64,000 bases of DNA from Exobasidium rhododendri (Eukaryota > Basidiomycota > Exobasidiomycetes > Exobasidiales > Exobasidiaceae), in contig CP110630.1 in NCBI GenBank assembly GCA_026210745.1, positions 930,001-994,000 of the forward strand, read 5' to 3'. The position numbers and the translations under genes are program-made. Within the stretch, counting starts at the first letter, position 1, and every line of letters starts with the position of its first letter. Below the pieces are notes generated by a model. The model worked only from the letters and a program-made list of their open reading frames with translations, was not told the DNA's origin and did not search any database. This document shows positions 5,169 through 62,741 of the stretch, one piece after another.

Positions 5169-5709
5169 TGGTGAACGGTTTGGTGAGTGAAAGGGTCGGT
5201 CAGGAGCAGCGAGACAAGATTGACCTTGACCTGCGATCTAGAGCAAGTTCAGCAAGCTTGATCCAGGCTTGTACACACGTGTCTCTGGCCACGTGGGAGA
5301 TTTGCTTCACCCCGGTCTCGTCTGGGCAATTAGGACAATTCCACCTCGAGGCTCTTGGTCGCCTGGGGAATATATTTCCTTTGTGTGGAGTGGAAGACGA
5401 AGGTACCATGATGGAGAGAGCAGACCCTTTCACAGGACCTGCCAGCATCGAAAGCAAGCATTGAAAATGTTCGGGGTTAGCCATGGTGATTGATTTGGCG
5501 TCCTACGTGGATTCTTCGGACTCTGGCTCTGCTCGCGCTCTGTTTCAAGGACCGTGCACGATCTGCTTGGATTTAACGTCGCCGCTTTGCCTCATTGAGA
5601 CGCATCTCGAGGCGACGTCTATATAAGAAGCGGAATTGCTATAGGGAGGCTAAAGGGCTGCCGATCTTTGTTGCTTTTCCCGCACTTGGATCTTACACTC
5701 CATCTCGTG
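5169..5709. other. divergent promoter region, VMA9 / pirin-RIB7
   Basis: This 541-base gap separates two diverging genes. A TATA-like element lies at 5620-5626, about 85-90 bases before the pirin-RIB7 ATG. No gene is supported. Open frames here on both strands lack recognisable content. Confidence 0.5.
5619..5628 (+). promoter_or_regulatory. TATA-like box of the pirin-RIB7 gene
   Basis: The sequence TCTATATAAG sits about 85 bases upstream of the ATG at 5710, compatible with a start site near 5650 and a 5' leader of about 60 bases. Assigned by sequence and position only. Confidence 0.4.
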
Positions 5710-7527
5710 ATGACTGTCGAGACTATATCAGCAGCGGCCGCAACAGGACAGATTACTCCCAGCAAAGCATCTATGCCGTCCACCCAGGCAATCGCTCGAA
5801 GGTGGTGGCAGCGAGGGTCAGCTGATCACGGCTGGCTCCGATCCTTCTTCTCCTTTTCATTTGCAGGATACTACGATCCGAGCTATATGTCCTTTGGACC
5901 TTTGCGGGTGATTAACGAAGATCGTGTCTCACCTAGGACTGGATTCCCGACACATCCACACTCGAACGCTGAGATCTTCTCGTACATCTTGGAAGGCGAA
6001 CTGACGCACAAAGATAGTTTGGGAAACATAGAGATACTGAAGCGAGGCGAAGTTCAGTTCACAAGCGCAGGAAGTGGTATTCGACACTCGGAATACAACG
6101 ATAACAAGAAGAGAGAGTGTCACTTCCTACAGATCTGGTACATTCCCGACACGAAGAATTTGACGCCGAAATACTACACTATACCGCAAGTGCCCGACGA
6201 AGACAAGACGGACAAGTTCATGACGCTGATACGAGATGTAAAGACCTTTTCCAGCGAGGAACTGAAGCTTACAGGGCTGCTCCCAAAGGGTCGAGCGATT
6301 CCGGCTCACTGTTCCTTGACGACGCGAGCAAGTATTCTTACACCAGGCAAGGTGATTAGTCATTCTTTGGGAGGAGAGTCAAAGCAGACAAGTGGAGAGC
6401 GATGGGCCTATCTACACTTGGCAATGACGAGTGGGTACAAGAACCCCGGTGAATTTGAAGCGAGACTGCGGAAGGACATTGTTGGCTATACTCGACACGA
6501 GGATCAGCTAGCCAGGGCTGCTCGATTTTGCAGGCAGATGTACGGCTTCTCACCTTACAGCGGCACGAAGCTCCAGAGCAATGCGGAGAAGCCTAGAGTG
6601 ACGCTGACGTACGCTCAAAGCAAGGACGGCAAGATCGCAGGCCCGGAAAAGAAGATGGTGACCCTGAGCTGTGATGCAAGCATGATCATGACACACAGTC
6701 TTCGTACCATGCATGAAGGTATTCTGATCGGCATCGGCACGCTTCTCAATGATGATCCTCAACTGAACGCTCGACGTTTGAATCCACTGCCGGAAGGAAA
6801 ACCAGTCTCGAAAGACCTCTTCCCTCGGCCCATTGTGCTGGATAGCAAATTGCAGACGCCGCTCTCTTGCAAGCTTTTGGAGAACGTGAAGGCTGGAACG
6901 GGCAAGTCACCTCTCATCATCGCTGCCAAGGACCACGATGAGGCGAAAGCAGATGAATTGAGAAAAGCTGGTGCAGAAATCCTCGAAGTAGAGGCAGAGG
7001 GGAATATCCTCCCGTGGAATGATGTCATGGCTCGCATCACACAGGCTGGGATCAAAAGTGTCATGATAGAGGGGGGAGCTACGGTCATTGAGACACTATT
7101 TGCTGCACACGAAACTTCACCCATCATTGATGAAGTCATTGTGACAGTGGCGCCTGTGAAGCTCGGCAGTGCAGGCCTGGGCTACAAGCGACCTGCCTGG
7201 ATCAGTAGCGTGCTCAACTTACCTGTCACATCAAAATCGGATACCTCCCCTGCTGCCTCGGAACTCCAACCGGTCAATCTGGATCCAGAGATCTTCAACA
7301 AGGACTTTGTCTTCGCTTGGTCTGCTAAGCCCATTGTAAACGAAGCACGCATCAAGGTAGAGGGTCAGACACTTCAGGAAGGAGATGGCTTGTTTATCAA
7401 ACGGGGCAATGTTGGACACGAGATCATCATCGAGAATGTAGGAGAAAGGAATGCCGAGTTCATCTTGTTCGATGTCGAACCAAGCAAGGGCGGCAAGGTC
7501 GACGACGACTACGATGATTCAGACTAA
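5710..7527 (+). CDS. pirin with an internal RIB7-type riboflavin reductase domain
   Basis: Single exon, 605 aa. Residues about 28-246 are a pirin (bicupin): HADHGW-type start (RGSADHGWLRSF), FGPLRVINEDRV, THPHSNAEIFSYILEGEL and SAGSGIRHSEY, keeping metal ligands His82, His84, His126 and Glu128. The second cupin begins with AYLHLAMTSGYKNP (233-246). It is then interrupted by about 295 residues of RIB7/RibD-C reductase (TLTYAQSKDGKIAG, HEGILIGIGTLLNDDPQLN, PRPIVLD, SVMIEGGATVIETL). The cupin resumes at ARIKVEGQTLQEGDGLFI (546 on) and ends EFILFDVE. RIB7 reduces 2,5-diamino-6-ribosylamino-pyrimidinone phosphate in fungal riboflavin synthesis; pirins are nuclear or redox cupins of mixed function. 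The longer open frame upstream begins with TTG, so I chose the ATG at 5710. Both halves look intact. Confidence 0.88.
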   Translation: MTVETISAAAATGQITPSKASMPSTQAIARRWWQRGSADHGWLRSFFSFSFAGYYDPSYMSFGPLRVINEDRVSPRTGFPTHPHSNAEIFSYILEGELTHKDSLGNIEILKRGEVQFTSAGSGIRHSEYNDNKKRECHFLQIWYIPDTKNLTPKYYTIPQVPDEDKTDKFMTLIRDVKTFSSEELKLTGLLPKGRAIPAHCSLTTRASILTPGKVISHSLGGESKQTSGERWAYLHLAMTSGYKNPGEFEARLRKDIVGYTRHEDQLARAARFCRQMYGFSPYSGTKLQSNAEKPRVTLTYAQSKDGKIAGPEKKMVTLSCDASMIMTHSLRTMHEGILIGIGTLLNDDPQLNARRLNPLPEGKPVSKDLFPRPIVLDSKLQTPLSCKLLENVKAGTGKSPLIIAAKDHDEAKADELRKAGAEILEVEAEGNILPWNDVMARITQAGIKSVMIEGGATVIETLFAAHETSPIIDEVIVTVAPVKLGSAGLGYKRPAWISSVLNLPVTSKSDTSPAASELQPVNLDPEIFNKDFVFAWSAKPIVNEARIKVEGQTLQEGDGLFIKRGNVGHEIIIENVGERNAEFILFDVEPSKGGKVDDDYDDSD

Positions 7528-25800: not shown

Positions 25801-28800
25801 TCAGAATCCTTCGTACTGACTTTCTTCGTCAAGGACACGATGCCGGTCATTGACAGCTGACCACAATTTCCAGCCAAGCTTCTGCAGCAGCTCCCTCTCT
25901 AGTGCTTGTGCCTGCTTCTTTTCTTTGATAGTCTCTGCTGTACCTGCACCCACGTCCTTGATCAACTTTCTAGCAGCTTGAAGAGCAGTACCAAGTCGAT
26001 TGTGAAGAATAGACCAGGTAATGTAGACGTTTGCAAATGCCTTGTCGTTAGAATCGACCAATCGACGGTATCTTTCAAAGGTCTCTTCAAACTCGGCACT
26101 CGCACTTCCTTCTTTTCGTAGAAGTAACGCTCTTGCCTTTCGATTCAATGCTAAGATGAGAGCCGACCTTGCTTTCTCCAAACGCTTGCCCTCTTCTTTC
26201 TCCTTGGAACTTGCTTCCGATGTTGGCTTCTTCTTGCTGCCGGTGTGAATGAGGATTTGATCTTCATCCACCTCTTTGTGAGCGAGAACAGCTTCACAAG
26301 CGACTAGCACTTCGTCGACCTTGGTCTTGTCTTCAGTCGAAAGAGACTCCAACTTACTTACCAGTACACCCAGGTCGTTGGGAAAGTCCTTCAACAATCG
26401 TGCCAAAAAGTCTGGCCTTTCCTTTTCTGGCAACTTCTTTACCAGACCCGTCATGAGATCTGCTACACTCTCTTCGCTCTTCTTCTCGCCATCCTCGTCC
26501 ATTGGTGCCTTTTTCACGGCAGGCGGGACAAGATATCGTAATTGCTGCTTATCGGTAGGACCAACAAAGCTGATCGTGCCCAGCAGCAGGTCGCCTGGCA
26601 CGGCTTCCTTGGGCAGCGCATCTCCCTCCAAATTTGTGTCCAAGCAGAGAATCTTTCTCTCGCCTGGAAATAGCTTCACTGCCTCGAAACCAGCTGACTT
26701 GCTACCGAATTGATCCATATGATCTTCATACAAATCCACCTTCTCCACTGGTTTACTCAACTTCTGATCGATTCTCAATGTCATGTTCTTCAGCTTGTCT
26801 AGCACGCTTACTTGGTCGTTCAACAGCTGCACCTGCACGACGAAAGATCCTTTCTCCAAGCCTTCAATCGCTTTGGGGTACACGTCGCCAAAGTACCGTC
26901 GCTTCTTTTGAATGTCGAAGAGTTGAAGGAGCATCGGTACTGCCGAATCATACAAGTGATTACTGAGAGGAAGAGACAGCGTGATATTGTTCTTTTCCTC
27001 CTTCAGCTCCAGTGCGTACGTCAGGATCAGCTCGTTCATTTGCCTTCCATTGGGGTGTACATCGCGAGCAGACGGTAGAGGTCGTAGCGTAGAATTATGA
27101 GGTCTCGCGAAACTTCTGCGTTGATCGAATGTTATTGTCGGCTTCAGTGTTTCGATACGTAGGTTGGACATACATTCCAATTTAGCGATCCCATCTCCTC
27201 CAATAATGGTCAATTCATCGCGGCCAGTGACTATTCTCGAGACGGTGATGCCGTGAAATTCAATGTCAGCTTCCAATGTAAAAGCACCCGCGTTGGTGAA
27301 GAATTGAGCCAAGCAGAGCTCCATCGTCATGCCGCCTTTGACCCTCATCTTTTTGCTGATAGGCTCGCCTTCATTCAGTGCCAAGACATAGGCATGCTCG
27401 GCGTCGGGTAGCCTTTGTTGAGGCTCAAGTTGAACAGTATGAACCCAACAACGGACGCTTGCACCGGGCACCTGATGCTTGGTGCTCTTTAATCGTAACT
27501 CAGCCCATGTCGCTCCTTCCGGCACGGCAATGAAACGACGATCGACCTTGCCCTTTGACAGTTGCAATGATGGCAACTCGAAAGTAGGTCCATCTAGAAG
27601 AACAGGCTTGGCTACAGTGACAGGCACGTCGAACAACTTGCGACCCGGCGTGTCTGAATCGTACCCTGAAATGGTAGCAGAGTGAAGACCAGGAGGCAGC
27701 TGTGTGGCATCAACGCGTACTTCGAATGTCCTGCCATTTCCACCAAGGAAAAGATACTGAGGCGTCTTTATCCAAGGCTCGCTGGCGATCAAGGTGACTG
27801 GAAGCTGAAGATCGTACGCCCGTTCCGTCTCCCCGATTGTTTTAAAGGTAGGTTGCACAGTGACATTGTACTGATTCAATCGATAGGCGCTCTGTTTTTC
27901 ACGTATGTAGATGCCCCTCTCTGTTGTCCCCGCTCGACCTGGCACTTTGCCTGGTGGAATGACCGACACGCGGAATTCTGCATCTTGATCAGGTCTGTCC
28001 TTGTGAGCTACAAGGTAATCCCATGCTTTGTCGACTTGGATGAACGGAACACTCATGTCATCGTTGACGTCTTTGGCAGTTGCACGAATCGCCTTGTAAA
28101 CCCGTGCGGCAGTGATGGGGATCTCTTCCTTCTTCATGCCCGAGAGCAGCAACGCAATGGCACCACACGCATTTGGTGACGACATCGAGGTACCATTCGC
28201 CAGCATGGTCGCCTGTAGACAGTAACGTGGAATAGAGGTAACGGCAGCTCCAGGGGCATACACATCGACACCTTTACTTCCATCAGCAGAGGGACCGCGA
28301 CTGCACCACGTCGTTACGGAAGAAGGGACATTCTCCTCAACAAGAGCATATTCCGCCTCTTGCATCGCCCCGGCATCGACGTACGCTCCTATGCTCAAGA
28401 CTCCAGTCGTTGTACCACCTGGTTGCCCGACTGTACTGATAGCAGGTCCATTGTTACCTGCACTTGAGATGAAGAGTATGTCCTTCTTTCTTACGACGTA
28501 ATCGCGAAGTGTTTCGGCAAATGCTCCCTTGTCTTCGACACCAAAAGCTCCACTTTCTCCAAAGGACATGTTGGCGATATCGCAATCTGAGGCAATCAAT
28601 GCTTGCGCTGCCCTGAGAAGAGCCTGCTGGGTTTCCATGCTGCCCCTATAGGAGTAAGGGGAAAGGGAGGACCTTGTCAGACAAACCTCATCGCAGAAAG
28701 GTATAGCCTCCGCCAACACTTACAGCCTCGTGTCGCCGATCTTCATCGAGATGATTTCGCACCCCTTGCTTACACCGCTCTTGACCTGATCGTCCTCTCG

Positions 28801-41295: not shown

Positions 41296-42078
41296 GCTCT
41301 AATCAGCACCTCTCAGCAAAAGCGACGAGAGCGGCAAAATCAAGGTAGCGAAAGAAAGGGAGAGAAGTCCGGCTCTTCGTAGGTGGACAGAAGTTAGGGG
41401 AGGAATCAATCTAATTTCGTGACGCAAGCCGTGTCGCGTCGCGAGAGAGAGAGAGCAACAAAAAAGACTATATCCCTTGAGTATTGATTGTATCGTAATT
41501 GCGAAGATAAGAAAACAGAGGACCGTGATTCGTATTAATTTTCGTGTTGCTCTCAATGGCCAAAGTCAAACAACGTACACTAGACGACCAACGCAAGCGC
41601 TTATTTTCACGCATGCCCTTCCCCCTTCTCCTCTCCAGGGAAGAAATCCTTCGGGTACACCAAAGGAGACTTCGGTCTATTCTTTTGCGCTCATCATGCA
41701 ACCTGCAGCACCCTCACATCAATCATCGTGTCCCACTAACGGGCAGAGAACGGGCCACTGCTCGTCCACCTAATGCACATATCTCATGAGGACCAATCGA
41801 CGTGAGAGAAATGATATGTCTCAGGAGTAACTGTATTTCTTTTTAGATTTAGCTTGGTGTCGATCTTCGCCAAGAACCTTGAGCTGAGAGAGACGTCGGG
41901 GTACCTTTCCGCGATCAAACAATCAAGTCTCTGATTGTGAGAAAAAAAGCTCAGACTGACGGAGTCCAAAACGCTTGTCTGTCCTCTTGCTGCGCCATAC
42001 CAATCCCTACGTTTTTGCACCTTGCTACACCTCGACGCTCACCTTCTGATCAGACCTCTACAATTAAGTGCTCAGAGG
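41296..42078. promoter_or_regulatory. divergent promoter region, CAF-1 / GH105
   Basis: This 783-base gap separates the two start codons. It has short open frames on both strands without recognisable content, and a GAGAGAGAGAG stretch near 41445. No gene is supported. Confidence 0.4.
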
Positions 42079-43574
42079 ATGAACACATTCCTCCTACATC
42101 TCTTGCTCTTTCTTTCTCTTCATCATTTCTCAGAAGCCCACAAGGTCTCTCGAACTCACTCATACATAGACGAGTCTGACATTGGCTTTGACCTTGCTCA
42201 AGCCGTCGAAGGCGCGAAACGCCTATCCCGTCACTCCTGGGAGTACGGAGCAACCGCTCAAGCGTTGCTCGAGGTATACAATCCCGAGCTTTCTGTCTTC
42301 TCCAAGCATGCATTTCCTTCTGGCTCAATACCAAACGTGAGCAGTGAAGACGTCGAAGCGCTTCATTACCTGGCGCCCCACATCCTAGTGAATGGTGACA
42401 CGCTCGCAAATGGAGATGGTGCCAATGGAGACCCCGCTTCTCTGGGTGTTGGTGCTCTTCTGCTGGGAGTCAGAAGTGACAGCGTCAAGCATGCAGCCAC
42501 TCGCCAAATAAAACACCTCTACAAAGCTCCTCTCTACTTCAATGGCGCGATTAGTCAGCGAGAAGGAATACCGGAGCTATGGGCAGATGGCATGTTCATG
42601 ATTCCTCCCTTTCTGGCTTACTATGCAGTTGCAACTCAGAATGAGAGTCTCCTCAGAGATGCCATCCAGCAATGCAGACTATATCGGCAAGTACTGCGAG
42701 CAAACACGAGTCAAGAATGGAACGGCCTGTGGGTGCATATTGTAGGACCTGCATCCCAATCTCTTGGCATTTGGTCTACTGGTGAGACAGCGATGTGGCA
42801 GATTTTGCGTACGAAGGAGCAGGGTTTAGATACGTTCACTTCTTCTGTCTCATAGGAAACGGCTGGGCTGCTTTGGGCCTAGCGCGGGTACTGGGTACGG
42901 TGAAGCATTGGAAGAGGAGCGCTGATTGGGAGGACGAGCAACACGAGCTGATCGGATATATGATGGAAATCTTTACTGGACTCAATGGTGTTTCTGTGAG
43001 TTTTTTTTTAGTCCTTTCCCGCATTAAGATGCGATACACTGAAAGACATTATGATCTTCAGGCAGAGCCACAGACTGGTTTGCTAAGGAACTACCTCGTA
43101 GGCGGGTCAAGCAGCCAAAACGACAGAAGTGTAAAGTGGTTTGGCGAGGGAGCCGGTTCGGCAGCTCTAGTTGCTGCAGCTTTACGATTGGCCGTCATGG
43201 AGCCCGCGATCGCCAGGCCTCTTTTGGGGGATTTGAAATCGATACGAGAAGCCGTCATCTCTCGTGTTAATTCGACCGGCTATCTTGAACCGACAGTGAA
43301 CCCTCTAGATTGGTTTACAAGTGTTCCTGACACAAACGGTGAGTGTGTGGGAGGACCGTTACACTCGAAAAGGAAAGAAGGGGGCGGAGGAACGGATAGA
43401 ATCGGAGCGGAGTAAAGATTGTCTGACGAAGAATGTTGCATTGTTTGCAATCGCACAGGCAGTCCGGAAGGCCAAGCATTCATCAGCATGATGGGAGCAG
43501 CATGGCGAGATTGTGTGAAGACACATATTTGTACGACCGAAACCTTGTCCGCCGATCGAAGGAGAGAATTATGA
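42079..43574 (+). CDS. secreted GH105/GH88-type glycoside hydrolase
   Basis: Four exons: 42079-42781, 42856-42995, 43062-43338, 43459-43574; 411 aa. A signal peptide is seen (MNTFLLHLLLFLSLHHFSEA). Family motifs include ELWADGMFMIPPFLAYYAVA with the catalytic-region Asp, GIWSTG joined by splicing to NGWAALGLARVLG, and SPEGQAFISMMGAAWRD at the end. GH105 enzymes hydrate unsaturated rhamnogalacturonides released by pectate lyases. The expected activity is thus in pectin use, like the CE12-type gene 23 kb away. The usual LWHQ substrate motif is seen only as QTGLLRNY, so substrate range may differ. N-glycosylation sites are present (for example NES, NTS). Confidence 0.83.
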
Positions 43575-45543: not shown

Positions 45544-46562
45544 ATGCGATCGTTCAACACCATCTTGGCATTTGTTTTGCTCTCGGTCACCTTAGTTGTG
45601 TCAAGCCCTGTTCCTATTGTGAGTCTTTGACACTCTTGCTTGTATCCAGGCTACACGCCGGGAGCGTATCGTTCTGAGGGACTGATCGAAGTTTTCTTTC
45701 ACAGGGATCATCGGCTGCACTTGAGGAACGAGCACCTTTCAGCCCCCCCGGCAAGGCATGGAAGCGAGAGGAGGCTCTTGAAGAGCGATCACCCTTCAGC
45801 CCCCCTGGCAAGGCATGGAAGCGAGAGGAGGCTCTCGAAGAGCGATCACCTTTCAGCCCCCCTGGCAAGGCATGGAAGCGAGAAGAGGCACTTGAGGAAC
45901 GATCACCTTTCAGCCCCCCTGGCAAGGCATGGAAGCGAGAGGAGGCTCTTGAAGAGCGATCGCCCTTCAGCCCCCCCGGCAAGGCATGGAAGCGAGACGA
46001 AGCTCTCGAAGAGCGATCACCTTTCAGCCCCCCTGGCAAGGCATGGAAGCGAGACGAAGCTCTCGAAGAGCGATCACCTTTCAGCCCCCCTGGCAAGGCA
46101 TGGAAGCGAGACGAAGCTCTCGAAGAGCGATCACCCTTCAGCCCCCCTGGCAAGGCATGGAAGCGAGACGAAGCTCTCGAAGAGCGATCACCCTTCAGCC
46201 CCCCTGGCAAGGCATGGAAGCGAGAGGAAGCTCTCGAAGAGCGATCACCCTTCAGCCCCCCTGGCAAGGCATGGAAGCGAGAGGAGGCTCTCGAAGAGCG
46301 ATCGCCCTTCAGCCCCCCTGGCAAGGCATGGAAGCGAGAAGAGGCTCTTGAAGAGCGAGCACCTTTCAGCCCCCCCGGCAAGGCATGGAAGCGAGAAGAG
46401 GCTCTTGAAGAGCGAGCACCTTTCAGCCCCCCCGGCAAGGCATGGAAGCGAGAAGAGGCTCTCGAAGAGCGATCGCCCTTCAGCCCCCCCGGCAAGGCAT
46501 GGAAGCGAGAAGAGGCTCTCGAAGAGCGAGCACCTTTCAGCCCCCCTGGCAAGGCGTACTAG
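45544..46562 (+). CDS. secreted tandem-repeat peptide precursor, kexin-processed, alpha-factor-like layout
   Basis: Two exons: 45544-45618 and 45705-46562; 310 aa. A signal peptide MRSFNTILAFVLLSVTLVVS is followed by SPVPI, the intron, then GSSAALEER. From there come 14 exact 57-base units (19 aa each) plus a final partial one. Unit: (S/A)PFSPPGKAW-KR-(E/D)EALEER. Copies 1, 12, 13 and 15 start with Ala, the rest with Ser; the spacer after copies 5-8 is DEALEER. The 15th copy is APFSPPGKAY followed at once by the stop. Lys-Arg sites are kexin targets, so decapeptides, or 17-mers with the spacer, would be released in the secretory pathway. No CAAX box. Third-base differences between units all keep the protein, showing selection on it. 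Role (mating, signalling or RiPP) is not known. Confidence 0.87.
45732..46562 (+). repeat. 57-bp tandem repeat array, 14 full copies plus one partial
   Basis: The unit is exactly 57 bases, in frame, with a near-invariant core TTCAGCCCCCCYGGCAAGGC. Differences are mostly synonymous (CTT/CTC, TCA/TCG, CCC/CCT) or Ser/Ala and Glu/Asp changes. The pattern of shared variants in neighbouring copies (for example GACGAA in copies 5-8) suggests spread by unequal exchange. Confidence 0.97.
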
Positions 46563-47035: not shown

Positions 47036-49091
47036 TCAGTCCAAGCTGAGACGATTTGCCCCGTTGATTCGATCAACATAGTCCGTGGATTGTCGTTGTT
47101 GTTGTTGCTGCTCTTCCTTGCCTACCTGGATCATAGCAAGAGCGTTTGTCTTTGTGGTGGCATGACCATCGAAACTTTTGTGATCGTTCGTCCTTTGACG
47201 ACGATGACCTCCCAGATGCCCAATAGCGTCATGAGCTTGGCGTAGACCTGAATAGAAGTGAACAAAAATCCACCGGTGGGTGAGATGAGTGAGATAAGAA
47301 GGGAATGAAGGCTGTGTATATGCAGACGAACCTTTGCCAAAATTGAAGAGACATAGCACAGCATTGACGAGAGTCAGGAGCAAAGAGAGCTAATAAATTC
47401 CCAGCAGGGAGGGTACTTGAGCAGCATCAGTCAACGCTATAGCCTGCGCGAAAGATCAGATCTTGTCACTTCTCCACTCTGTCACTCACAGTTGCAAAGA
47501 TGGAGAAGAAGGTCAGCGTAAGTCGAACAGTGCGGTATGATGCAGCACTCGCAGGGTCGTATATGCGGGTGATCTAGAAGGGATAAAGGGGAGTGAAGGA
47601 AGGATAGTAAGATGATGATCGTAGGCAGGGGTCTGTCTACGCTCGAGATGTTTCTCACCTTGTAGATAAAATATACACCTCCAGCTATGAAGCAGAGAAT
47701 GCTTAAGATCATGGTCGAGATGATCTCTCTTCTTGCGGAGAAAGCACAAAGGAAGAGAAGCAAGACAGCGACTGGAACAGCTGCAATAGTGATACCATAT
47801 TCCCATTTCCTTCGATCGACGACCAAGATCAGGTAAGACATGGTGAACCCTGAGCCGAAGAAGAAGTCGAATTTTAGAAGTACGACTAGGACTTGGTAGC
47901 AGAGATAGTAGCGACGTATGTTGATATCTGCTCCAATCAACTAATGAGATCTTTACAGGTCAGCACGAAATGCTCCTCCGCCTCGACATTTTCGCTTACA
48001 GCCCACCTTGTATATTCTCCAACCCCATTCTGACCACAATTTGAATGCTATGAAAGTCCTGTACAGGGCCCGAGATTGGAGGCGCTTGCCTTAGCAGTGA
48101 TTACTTCCAAGCACTTGCTCTCTGCACTCACAAGGGTATCTGTGCAATGCCGACAACAACGGGAACCACAATGAGATACTTTTCTACGGAAGGAAAGAGA
48201 TCGTTCAAGCCACTGCAGATAGCACCTGTGTCTTCTGAACATTCAACGCCTTCACCAGAAGCATCCTGAAGTCGAAGAGCATCACGGACTTGACTGATTT
48301 CTAAAGCTGCCGTGACGAGCAAGGCAATGTTGAAGATGGTCACACCAATCTGATCGCATCACCATTTTTTTCCCCATTGCCCTTCATCAGTACAGGATGA
48401 CAGGTTGCATTACCGCTAACTTCACGGAGCACTCACAACTTGAATCGTGTTCTTCAGTCGATTTGCGTCCAAAGCAATCAAGACGATGAAGATCATTCCG
48501 AACATTGTCAACGAGAAGAAGACGGAGACAGTCTTGAGGTCTTGAACCCGATGATTCTCAAGCGTATGAAGCTATACTCATACAGCAGATAAGAGTCAGA
48601 GACCCTGATGGTCATCTCCCAGCTTGTCTTTACCGTCCTTGTCCACTCACTCGTATCATTCCGAAGACAATGCCTACCATAGAAATAACCACGGCGGCCT
48701 CGAGCACGACCGTAATGATTAGAGCGCCGGCCCATCTACCTGGAAGCCACGGGTTCTTAGCCACCGAGGAAGTGCGATTTGTGATACCTGAGAATATTGT
48801 GTCTCTGGATGCCAATGTCTTCTCTCCCCTCTTTGCATCGCTGCTGATTACTTCCTTTAAGATTTCATCATGCAAGATCGGTTCCGAGGTGTCAGTTGCT
48901 GTTGGAGTGAAGGGTATATCATCATTAGTGTGGGGGAAGACAGGTATGTGCGACCTCTCCGTGTCTTCTGCTTGATCAATAGTAGCATAGATTTGTGTTG
49001 GATGTAGGCTGAAAGAGGGATGGCGCTGTTGATACGACTGGGGAATCTCATCGAGCTTAGTGATTTCACCTCGGTATATTTGGGCGGCCAT
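47036..49091 (-). CDS. unknown fungal polytopic membrane protein, about eight helices
   Basis: Eight exons: 49091-48651, 48571-48437, 48349-48132, 48058-48007, 47940-47659, 47573-47490, 47389-47332, 47247-47036; 493 aa, all joins in phase. A polar N-terminal region of about 120 residues is followed by hydrophobic segments: LIITVVLEAAVVISMVGIVF, VFFSLTMFGMIFIVLIALDA, IFNIALLVTAALEI, YLIVVPVVVGIAQIPL, FGSGFTMSYLILVV, TIAAVPVAVLLLFLCAFSA, ILSILCFIAGGVYFIYK and LSLLLTLVNAVLCLF. A conserved-looking loop holds YDPASAASYRTVRLTL, and NFGKGL follows the last helix. The cytosolic tail is His/Gln-rich. I recognise a fungal-specific style but no named family; no Ste2 or Ste3 signature is seen. It converges on the peptide-precursor gene. 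Confidence 0.7.
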
Positions 49092-49442
49092 TTCGTTCTA
49101 GTGCATACTGACTCAGGTTTGCTTGTATTATAAGGGACCGGTGTATAGTATTATGGGGGCTTAAAACATATAATGGAAGGAGCGTTGATGATAGGAGGAA
49201 GAGGCGTATTGCGACATTGAAAGTGAGTGATGGTATGGTGAGATGGTCTACGGAGTCGCTGTAGAAACTTTAATTTGGATCTGCAACAATTCACTTCTGG
49301 CTCTTCTTATCACGCGCTAGATCTTTCAAGGCCTAAATAGCGGAGCGAGCAACTTCGCCGGGCTTTTGGAAGTACAGCATGCAATGATTAAGATCCGCGT
49401 ACCTTTTAGACATCGATCGCGCAGGAAAGTTGAAAGCAAGGC
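49092..49442. other. intergenic region
   Basis: This 351-base gap contains the promoter of the membrane-protein gene and the 3' end of the carrier gene. Nothing else is recognised. Confidence 0.4.
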
Positions 49443-58262: not shown

Positions 58263-58775
58263 GCTGAACAACTTACTCGGCCGACGACACTGCTGCCTCT
58301 ACTGTCTTGGGCGATGATGACGTTTCCAAGCCTCTCTATTGTACCCTTGCGCATCCCCAGAATTCATGTCCAAGAGCGAGACTTGCACTTATCCGATGCA
58401 ATTGACGCGTGAGTCAATCCGAGCCGAGCCCGCAAATTTGCAAAATCTTCCCAGCCAAAAGGGCCATGTTGTACGCGTCAGAGTGTTTGGGAGATGTTTG
58501 CCGCTTCAAAATGCAAAGTCAATCCAACAGGGCATATGTGCTTATTTCCCAAAATGCCTGCGTAGCAGGCCAAAAAATATGCTGCATATGCCTCCAGGAT
58601 TGACTTTTAATGCAGAAACTGGATTGACCCGTCTCATTTCACTACTTGACTGGATTGACCTGACTTTGTGCGCCCTGAGGAACTCCACCGTCTCACAAAT
58701 CACAATAATAAGCAAGACCATAGCTGGTAGCAGGCAGGGAAATCAACGCAATCAGCTGAAGCGTCACACCAGAAC
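58263..58775. other. RIM2 upstream region and left flank of the Crypton island
   Basis: The first part is the RIM2 promoter. From about 58390 the sequence becomes AT-richer. It holds five copies of GGATTGAC or its complement (58413, 58518, 58597, 58621, 58652), the motif ATGCAATTGAC at 58396, and the 14-mer AAATTTGCAAAATC at 58434 that recurs at 62244. No separate gene is supported. Confidence 0.55.
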
Positions 58776-60767
58776 ATGTCCAGTCATAGAGGAAGGATTA
58801 CTTGTGCCGCTGAGCACTTCTTGGCAGAAGCTAATCTGCAGCTGGGAATGGTCATTGATATGGAAGATGATGTTGCACCGTCTAGCACAAAAGAGACCGT
58901 TGGCAACATTGAGTCAGCAGAGATCAATAATACAACAGAAGCAATGCCCAACGCAGAAATTGCAGATGAATGGGATGATGCATTTGGTGATCAGTACGTT
59001 CAAGATCATTTGTTGTCGAGTGGAACAATTAAATCATACAAGCAGAATATTGTACGCTTCAGGAAATGGATTGCAACATTAGGCAGCTCTTGTACATTTA
59101 AAGACGGCCTAGACATGCTTGGTGAGCACAGTGAAAGGCTCTGCCGCACTTGGTTACAAGAGCGTGTGAGACTGGCCAATGCCAACTCAAGCACACTGCA
59201 AAGTATGCACGCAGCGCTCAAATGGCACTTCCTTACTGTACACAACTGTGATAGCGCTCCGCAAACTGGCTGGCACAAGACCACAGAAGGAGAATGGACG
59301 GGCAATCCTGTCTTCAGTAAGAGGTATCTGAACCTATTCAGAAGCAAGATGCGTGAAGTGAAGCGCTCTCTGGTTGCAAGCAAAAGCTCTCTACCAATGC
59401 TTTATCAGTATCTGTCTGTCATCCTAAAGGACATCAAGACAAAGCTACTTGCCTTTGACGCAACACCACATCTCATCACAAGTGAGCGTACACAATTGGA
59501 GTTCATGCATTTCTACATGATCCTGGCTTACAGGCTTTGGGCACGTTGTGATGAGATCTGCTCAATGCTATGGCGTCACATACATTCAACGATCAAATTC
59601 TCTTCTCCGGGAAACAATCCCTATCTGGAAGTGACAATTGCATTCCGCAAAACAAATCAGTATGAACTGAACAAAGCCAATGTATACCAGCTCTACTTCC
59701 TGCCTGGACGACCACTGGTAGATGCCGTCTCATCATATCAACGGTGGCATGCTTACTGGAAACTTGTTTGCGGACATGAGCCAAGGCCAACCGATCACAT
59801 CTTTCCTGCACCAGACAAGAAGGTGGGCCGTCTGCAGACTGGCACAAGGATGGAAGCAGCACAGATCAATTTAATGTTGGGTCAGATAGAGAATATCAAC
59901 AGCATGCTGAAGAATCAGCAGGGCAGATTTACGTCTCACTGTTTCCGACGCGGCGGAGCTCAAGACGCGGTATTACACGCACACCTGTATGGAGAACAGA
60001 GGCAGTCCATTACGCGTGCCCTGTGGTGGGGCGGCTGGTCTAAAGGGGAGCGTACCAACATGTTGGCTCACTACCTCTTAGAAGAGGTTGCTATGCAAGA
60101 AGAGTATCATGGAGATATGGAGGATCCAGGTGGAGACAACGTCCGAGGTAGCTACTTTGCAGGTGCACAAATGTCAGGACAGGACCGCATGATAGAGTCT
60201 TTCCAGTACGCCCTTGGAAAGCTTGAGAAACAACTCAGTATAATGCAACAGACCAACGTCAGCCTTGTAGAAGCACTGTTGCAGGGTTCACAGAGAGTGC
60301 AGGCACAGGCTGGCACAGCAAACACAGCAGCAACACCCAGTGTAGTCAACAGCGTCAACAGTCAACTGGAACACCTTGCCGGCACCTCTGCAGCTGTTGC
60401 TATTGGCGCCAATGCTGCTTCTGCTCTGGCAAGTGGGACGCCGCACATAGCTCCTGGCAGGCCGCTGCCACTGAGAATACCATCTGTAAAGACAGTAGAG
60501 GAGGTTGTTAAGCAATGGGAATTGGGCAACGCAAGTCAGAACCTCCTGGCTTTGTGCCGTTGGACCCCCGCTATGCGCAAGAAGGACAAGGGGGGGAATG
60601 CTCAAGTGTACAGTCTACGCAAGAAGATCTATGATGGGTATCTCAAGCGTAACAAGGATCTAAAGGCATTCTATGAGGCATATGGTGGTCCTGGCTTGAC
60701 GTTGCGTAGATACATTGATGCAATAAAGGCTGAAGAAAAAGATATACGAGTAGCGCAAAGAGGCTGA
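58776..60767 (+). CDS. Crypton tyrosine recombinase with GCR1_C-like DNA-binding domain
   Basis: Single exon, 663 aa, uninterrupted. An N-terminal SAM-like core-binding region (about 85-150: LSSGTIKSYKQNIVRFRKWI) is followed by a tyrosine-recombinase catalytic domain: Arg257 in LWARCDEICSMLW, His388-x-x-Arg391 in TSHCFRRGGAQDA, GGWSKGERTNMLAHYLLEE with Tyr433 as nucleophile. The C-terminal part (about 565-650: SVKTVEEVVKQWELGN, LCRWTPAMRKKDKG, FYEAYGG) resembles the GCR1_C DNA-binding domain found in fungal Cryptons. A Gln/Ala-rich linker lies between. All catalytic residues are present and no stop interrupts, so the enzyme may be active. Base composition differs from neighbours. Confidence 0.86.
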   Translation: MSSHRGRITCAAEHFLAEANLQLGMVIDMEDDVAPSSTKETVGNIESAEINNTTEAMPNAEIADEWDDAFGDQYVQDHLLSSGTIKSYKQNIVRFRKWIATLGSSCTFKDGLDMLGEHSERLCRTWLQERVRLANANSSTLQSMHAALKWHFLTVHNCDSAPQTGWHKTTEGEWTGNPVFSKRYLNLFRSKMREVKRSLVASKSSLPMLYQYLSVILKDIKTKLLAFDATPHLITSERTQLEFMHFYMILAYRLWARCDEICSMLWRHIHSTIKFSSPGNNPYLEVTIAFRKTNQYELNKANVYQLYFLPGRPLVDAVSSYQRWHAYWKLVCGHEPRPTDHIFPAPDKKVGRLQTGTRMEAAQINLMLGQIENINSMLKNQQGRFTSHCFRRGGAQDAVLHAHLYGEQRQSITRALWWGGWSKGERTNMLAHYLLEEVAMQEEYHGDMEDPGGDNVRGSYFAGAQMSGQDRMIESFQYALGKLEKQLSIMQQTNVSLVEALLQGSQRVQAQAGTANTAATPSVVNSVNSQLEHLAGTSAAVAIGANAASALASGTPHIAPGRPLPLRIPSVKTVEEVVKQWELGNASQNLLALCRWTPAMRKKDKGGNAQVYSLRKKIYDGYLKRNKDLKAFYEAYGGPGLTLRRYIDAIKAEEKDIRVAQRG

Positions 60768-62330: not shown

Positions 62331-62530
62331 CAAAATCGAGAAACATTGACGCGCGCGCGCCAGTCAAAACGAAAAGTCAAACGATGGGAAATATATTCTA
62401 CTTTCCTTGCTTCAGTTTGAAAAATAGCAGCAAAATCGAGAAACATTGACGCGCGCGCGCCAGTCAAAACGAAAAGTCAAACGATGGGAAATATATTCTA
62501 CTTTCCTTGCTTCAGTTTGAAAAATAGCAG
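62331..62530. repeat. exact 100-bp tandem duplication
   Basis: Bases 62331-62430 and 62431-62530 are identical at every position. Each unit contains ATTGACGCGCGCGCGCCAGT and GTCAAACGATGGG. The next five bases (CAAAA) begin a third unit that breaks off. Perfect identity implies a recent event or an assembly effect. Confidence 0.95.
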
Positions 62531-62741
62531 CAAAACGTGCGAAAAAGAGGGCAGGGCTTAGGTAAGCCAGCTTTCTCCCGCGTCTCACAGGTACACGCTA
62601 GGCATGATAGATGACAATTTCCTCCATCGATGTTGGCGAGATTCTAATTGACGTTATTTCAATCTTTGCTCTTGCTCCTTTGGCGGATTAGGAGCAAGAT
62701 AGGGATGCTCGCTTTGATAGTATCTTTCCTAAGAAGATTAA

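Follow-up and report, generated by a model that had tools for sequence, protein, structure and literature searches.

The gene at 45544-46562 on the forward strand of the window, the whole 64,000-nucleotide stretch of Exobasidium rhododendri DNA analysed here (C1:930001-994000), probably encodes a KEX2-processed repeat protein (KEP) that yields a linear signalling peptide ending in Trp, released by kexin cuts at both of its ends and most likely serving outside mating. The parts of this reading differ in strength: we are confident of the processing scheme as such, while we place the signalling role slightly below an even chance. The precursor would belong to an established class, and what seems particular to it is its core, for which the protein collection searched gave no relative. 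It is an extreme and clean case, carrying 15 copies of one core that is absent from that collection, in a host that is a plant parasite, and the predicted masses (e.g. m/z 1073.54 for SPFSPPGKAW) make it directly testable. The passages cited from the KEP papers PMC6339444, PMC7329392 and PMC9769878 give no established function for the alpha-factor-like precursors of basidiomycetes; judged against those passages, if the peptide did serve gall formation or cell signalling, this would be the first signalling function for basidiomycete KEPs.

The overall gene consists of two exons (45544-45618 and 45705-46562, forward strand) encoding 310 residues, which in translation are laid out as a signal peptide, a short pro-region and 15 cores. 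Exon 1 (product MRSFNTILAFVLLSVTLVVSSPVPI) contains the start codon, the signal peptide MRSFNTILAFVLLSVTLVVSS, with probable cleavage after VVS or VVSS, and the residues PVPI of the pro-region. The signal-peptide core is hydrophobic, with mean Kyte-Doolittle values of 2.59-2.95 over the 10-residue windows starting at residues 6-11, and by reading and hydropathy (peak 2.95) residues 1-21 look like the N-terminal signal peptide expected of a KEP. A predicted phase 0 intron of 86 nt (45619..45704, forward strand, GTGAGT...CAG), in which a branch-like CTGAT stands 18-22 nt ahead of the final base, separates the exons. This intron is needed, since without splicing the frame from the ATG reaches a stop after 28 codons and the frame of exon 2 contains no Met. 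An earlier note on this DNA had placed a signal peptide ahead of the repeats, and the signal-peptide-like start agrees with this.

Exon 2 opens with the remainder of the pro-region, GSSAALEER (45705..45731, forward strand), which closes with the first LEER. It is followed by 14 units of 57 nt (45732..46529, forward strand), recognised by translation and repeat analysis, each comprising the core (S/A)PFSPPGKAW, the dibasic pair KR and the spacer (E/D)EALEER. The 15th core, APFSPPGKAY (46530..46559, forward strand), is without KR and abuts the stop codon TAG at 46560-46562, so that the C-terminus of the core is set by the stop, as the earlier note had argued. Repeated, near-identical peptide units (15 cores, 14 full units) separated by kexin sites of the KR/RR/KK type are hallmarks of KEPs, and both are present, confirming the repeated core and Lys-Arg sites of the earlier note. 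Specifically, LEER precedes all 15 cores, the first included, KR follows 14 of them and the stop follows the last. The core types are 11 SPFSPPGKAW, three APFSPPGKAW and one APFSPPGKAY. The precursor contains no dibasic pair besides KR, no Cys and no N-glycosylation sequon, and its 30 Arg residues comprise a single one of the signal peptide, the 14 of KR and the 15 of LEER. All 30 Arg codons (45544-46559) are CGA, compared with the use of all six codons in a TPPII exon of the window (CGA 11/54); this uniformity may come from repeat homogenisation and was not counted as evidence. Tandem Repeats Finder describes the array with a period of 57, 14.5 copies, 94% matches and a score of 1367, the top of five rows for the window. 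Elsewhere in the window, an exact tandem duplication of a 100-base unit (62331-62535, 2.0 copies, 100% matches) lies outside the listed open frames.

Variation among the 14 full units follows the codon frame. Ten of 57 DNA columns are variable, nine of which fall on the third base of a codon (Fisher p = 8e-5), and only 2 of 11 distinct substitutions alter the residue, where the null mean is 7.7 (p = 0.0002). At the protein level, S alternates with A at position 1 and E with D at position 13, while the other 17 residues are invariant; the number and location of the 14 19-residue units given in the earlier note hold, and its description of them as exact is slightly off. One antisense frame is also stop-free and keeps 17 of the 19 residue columns, so the codon test alone leaves the strand unfixed. 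The sense strand is favoured by its ATG, its signal-peptide-like start and a stop placed exactly at the end of a core, whereas the antisense frame (45617..46558, reverse strand, 314 codons in the open reading frame list) has no Met; it spans the same repeats and is read as a by-product of the stop-free 57-nt unit. Substitutions are common to runs of copies, with GAC at position 13 in all of units 5-8, a pattern which points to unequal exchange combined with purifying selection.

From the sequence we infer splicing, both cuts, trimming, secretion, expression and the signalling role alike. In the proposed scheme, each precursor molecule would give rise to one linear peptide in as many as 15 copies. 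Signal peptidase would free the pro-protein, and kexin would then cut behind every KR and every LEER, with LEER as an LxxR form of the kexin motif, releasing each core on both sides from the acidic 7-residue spacer. The KR would be trimmed by a presumed Kex1-type carboxypeptidase. Optionally, a Ste13-type dipeptidyl peptidase would take off (S/A)P to leave the octapeptide FSPPGKAW (or FSPPGKAY), a step that is possible because the decapeptide begins with (S/A)P. The calculated [M+H]+ values of the predicted products are 1073.54 for SPFSPPGKAW, 1057.55 for APFSPPGKAW, 1034.53 for APFSPPGKAY, 889.46 for FSPPGKAW and 866.44 for FSPPGKAY. The secreted product would act as a non-mating signal, either between fungal cells or toward the plant host.

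In the genome searched (17.65 Mb, four contigs), at least two open frames at about C2:4777.7-4780.8 kb make up a kexin gene, with matches to Peptidase_S8 (E 9.1e-39) and to the P-domain (E 1.7e-25), the one P-domain match found in the genome, and with a hydrophobic stretch read near the C-terminus. The genome also has one gene of the DPP IV family (Ste13-type), in which the single genome match to DPPIV_N (E 1e-84) has a Peptidase_S9 match (E 9.4e-48) behind it in the same frame and a hydrophobic stretch is read upstream. For plant-pathogen effectors, LxxR is described as an expanded form of the Kex2 motif (PMC8528282, PMC10942635), and LEER fits it, so a second kexin site is proposed before each core; the occurrence of LEER before every core and its fit to LxxR agree with the earlier suggestion that LEER is part of the processing signal. 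The bracketing of the cores by LEER before and KR after appears tidy. Additionally, cleaved Kex2 sites show an excess of acidic and small residues at P1' and P2', and a moderate one at P4' (PMC2515848), a preference with which EEAL after KR agrees. Products of Coprinopsis KEPs made in Pichia possibly arose from cutting after a single Arg, and single kex knockouts of C. cinerea, which has three redundant proteases, still produced KEP peptides (PMC9769878). Kexin might cut the LEER site more slowly on account of the Pro at P2', in which case the product would be the 17-residue EEALEERSPFSPPGKAW, with a calculated [M+H]+ of 1929.93. As for Ste13, the alpha-type precursors described in the same paper have XA/XP runs following the dibasic site (PMC9769878), while in the Exobasidium precursor (E/D)EALEER follows KR and a single XP pair stands only after LEER; Ste13 trimming is therefore a guess.

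The earlier note had supposed that such a precursor would be new if the host were a basidiomycete. The host is one (Exobasidium rhododendri; Basidiomycota, Ustilaginomycotina, Exobasidiomycetes, Exobasidiales), but the novelty falls away, since alpha-factor-like KEPs of basidiomycetes were published between 2019 and 2022 (PMC6339444, PMC7329392, PMC9769878). Among the passages cited, Le Marquer 2019 describes alpha-type KEPs in Basidiomycota (PMC6339444), Umemura 2020 counts 7878 KEPs in 1345 of 1461 strains, with a mean of 5.30 per Basidiomycota strain (PMC7329392), and Vogt 2022 reports KEP peptides detected by mass spectrometry in the mushrooms Coprinopsis, Lentinula and Pleurotus (PMC9769878). 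Several of the latter products end in Trp. A Coprinopsis KEP expressed in Pichia gave QMRPPSW and QYKAPSW, from which XA/XP had been taken off; Pleurotus gave SGVAADW, Lentinula SGTGEASAADW, and KEP 447393 the peptide GPPAPSW, whose source is a non-repetitive C-terminus (PMC9769878).

No homologue of the precursor was found among the 8000 candidates scored per query from a collection of about 5.8 billion proteins. One query was the 310-residue protein, at E up to 1, the other a 120-residue construct of five cores, at E up to 10, and candidates were limited to proteins of 0.55-1.75 times the query length; EALEER-type words, if common in unrelated proteins, may have crowded out diverged relatives keeping only the spacer. 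A control query, the TPPII exon at 25804-28719 on the reverse strand, matched Exobasidium rhododendri CBS101457_000409 with 100% identity over 97% of its length. Further matches reached 85-87% identity, those of Ustilago and other smut fungi about 54-56%, and the smut relatives matched include Tilletiaria, Ceraceosorus, Tilletia and Jaminaea; no second Exobasidium was named in the best 120 of 667 matches. The collection contains at least one other protein of Exobasidium rhododendri together with smut relatives, perhaps not their whole proteomes. Because it holds a protein of the same species and gave no self match, the precursor gene would seem to be unannotated there, or annotated at a very different length.

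Within the genome, protein search found no paralogues, and the exact core-KR and spacer patterns have 14 matches each in 17.6 Mb, all inside the array, with no copy of the spacer pattern elsewhere; the core-KR pattern also had 0 matches in viral contigs. One candidate paralogue, C2:1947441-1947590 (E 0.07), was rejected, being antisense to a 765-codon open frame. The 120-residue construct was assigned to no Pfam or NCBIfam family, its one match (E 0.14) lying below the cut-off for that family. The precursor gene does not appear among the matches listed for literature on Exobasidium, on KEPs since 2019 or on basidiomycete signalling peptides since 2019, nor does the string FSPPGK among those listed for it, and the main texts of PMC6339444 and PMC7329392, supplementary tables aside, do not contain 'Exobasid'.

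What the peptide does can be argued from several sides, and a role as a signal would be the best reading. It draws on the many near-identical copies, on the conserved core and on the expression changes of KEPs of U. maydis, where 4 of 5 were differentially expressed in a host time course, as were 6 of 9 in Magnaporthe (PMC6339444). Against it stand the lack of a homologue in our searches and the report, in the passages cited, that six C. cinerea KEP knockouts had no detectable phenotype, where synthetic peptides also had no antibacterial activity (PMC9769878).

In a narrower form of the KEP reading, whose probability overlaps with that of the whole, the deca- or octapeptide would be a secreted effector or hormone-like signal that acts on Rhododendron tissue while galls form; we regard this as unlikely, though the best placed of the more specific proposals. 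Exobasidium species parasitise plants, in the case of E. rhododendri Rhododendron, and a GH88-like protein encoded upstream (41941-43412; partial GH88 match, E 9.9e-8) has a start that reads like a signal peptide. On the other hand, we know of no plant peptide hormone with a likeness to the core, and fungal self-signals also usually have identical repeats. The host time courses in which KEPs of U. maydis and Magnaporthe change expression (PMC6339444) would speak for a host-directed role as well. Quite unlikely, in our estimate, is a lineage-specific Exobasidium peptide hormone released by kexin through two motifs (LxxR before, KR after), which would direct gall formation or density sensing through a receptor or importer of its own with no kinship to Ste2.

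The cut products could instead coat hyphae and alter surface properties, like the repellents of Ustilago maydis, but this is improbable. Ustilago is placed in Ustilaginomycotina, so Exobasidium and Ustilago share one subphylum, and Rep1, compared here by description, is likewise a kexin-cut repeat protein. Rep1 peptides, which have a surface function, are longer, at 37 residues (PMC6339444) against 10 for the Exobasidium core and 19 for its unit, and a core rich in Pro and Gly with a Lys would presumably be a poor amyloid former.

A mating role, hinted at in the earlier note by the yeast alpha-factor-like layout, the Pro-Gly and the aromatic C-terminus, is unlikely, and an alpha-type mating pheromone in particular is very improbable. 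Genome-wide, Ste2 (PF02116) has 0 matches, as in the control genomes, which are prokaryotic, while the same profile method gave seven matches to STE3 (PF02076) in two sets at C2:1308.6-1311.8 kb on the forward strand, read as two neighbouring genes. About 1.2 kb from these matches, on the reverse strand, is a CAAX pheromone open reading frame of 53 codons (PF08015, 24.1 bits against a cut-off of 22), containing two tandem copies of ERNPKPTTSASCVI, of which only the second closes with a terminal CAAX box (CVIA). By its profile matches this mating locus (C2:1307241-1311807) looks like the usual basidiomycete system, and it lies on a different contig from the precursor gene on C1, to which it is unlinked.

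Equally little weight falls on a precursor of a cyclic, dikaritin-type RiPP, whose plan with nearly identical repeated cores is alike; this too is unlikely, and we would be surprised to find it true. A Tyr in the core is usual in dikaritins for cyclisation, and here it occurs in 1 of 15 cores. The earlier note had proposed a search for DUF3328; the corresponding UstYa profile (PF11807) has 0 matches genome-wide, and the prokaryotic control genomes are without a match either. From 36 kb on, 34 open frames reach 110 codons or more; 20 of them were given to Pfam, and the 12 that matched include no peptide-modifying oxidase or methyltransferase. They comprise an amino acid kinase in two pieces, one with PUA, which is probably glutamate 5-kinase, as well as CAF-1 subunit A, GH88, DUF1749, KPWE (with a weak DUF1749), GAPDH, two mitochondrial carriers, eIF6, EXPERA and carbonic anhydrase. 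In sum of likeness and difference, dikaritin precursors (ustiloxin, phomopsin) have the KEP layout with repeated cores (PMC9769878), whereas Exobasidium has no UstYa match and 14 of its 15 cores lack Tyr.

Other frames of the window were recorded alongside. Downstream of the precursor, frames at 47039-49097 on the reverse strand have hydrophobic segments by reading and are perhaps one small membrane protein; the two of the three that were given to Pfam had no match. A 678-codon open frame at 58731-60764, with no Pfam match at E 0.001, may by its reading encode a tyrosine recombinase (Crypton-like). One open frame at 5599-7524 combines Pirin and RibD C-terminal domains, possibly as a fusion protein or as two genes run together.

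Scarcely to be expected is a functional relative of Qsp1, the imported quorum-sensing peptide NFGAPGGAYPW of Cryptococcus neoformans, although both are short secreted basidiomycete peptides with an F-x-x-P-G-x-A-aromatic pattern. FSPPGKAY of the last copy, in register with FGAPGGAY, shares F, P, G, A and Y (5 identities of 8, shuffle p = 0.026), but this likeness was singled out post hoc from many peptides. With the majority core there are only 4 identities (p = 0.087), and Lys replaces the second Gly of PGG. Matches to the oligopeptide transporter (OPT) number 10, in about three places on C1 and C3, yet transporters of this kind are widespread among fungi. After secretion, Qsp1 undergoes maturation outside the cell by Pqp1, a cell-wall protease, in which it is unlike the predicted Exobasidium peptide, and it acts after Opt1 import (PMC7537855); NFGAPGAAYPW serves as an inactive version (PMC5959073), and the Gly altered in it is Lys in the Exobasidium core.

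The preferred reading, a KEP giving a linear non-mating peptide, can be set against the precursors it most resembles. Saccharomyces prepro-alpha-factor is alike in being a secreted tandem precursor with KR sites, an acidic spacer and an aromatic C-terminus; it is unlike in its EAEA-type Ste13 spacer, absent from the Exobasidium precursor, and in a core unrelated beyond Pro-Gly. Likenesses are also described among mushroom KEPs, namely Coprinopsis cinerea KEP 490115, Pleurotus 1091723 and 1439342, and Lentinula 2599, all of them secreted basidiomycete proteins with repeated short cores, dibasic kexin sites and Trp-ended products (PMC9769878). The core sequences of these KEPs, compared by description only, differ from the Exobasidium core. 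KEP 490115 and the Pleurotus KEPs have XA/XP Ste13 motifs after the dibasic site, in contrast to the EEALEER spacer with its LxxR-type site in Exobasidium, and KEP 490115 is further alike in its possible cutting after a single Arg in Pichia (PMC9769878).
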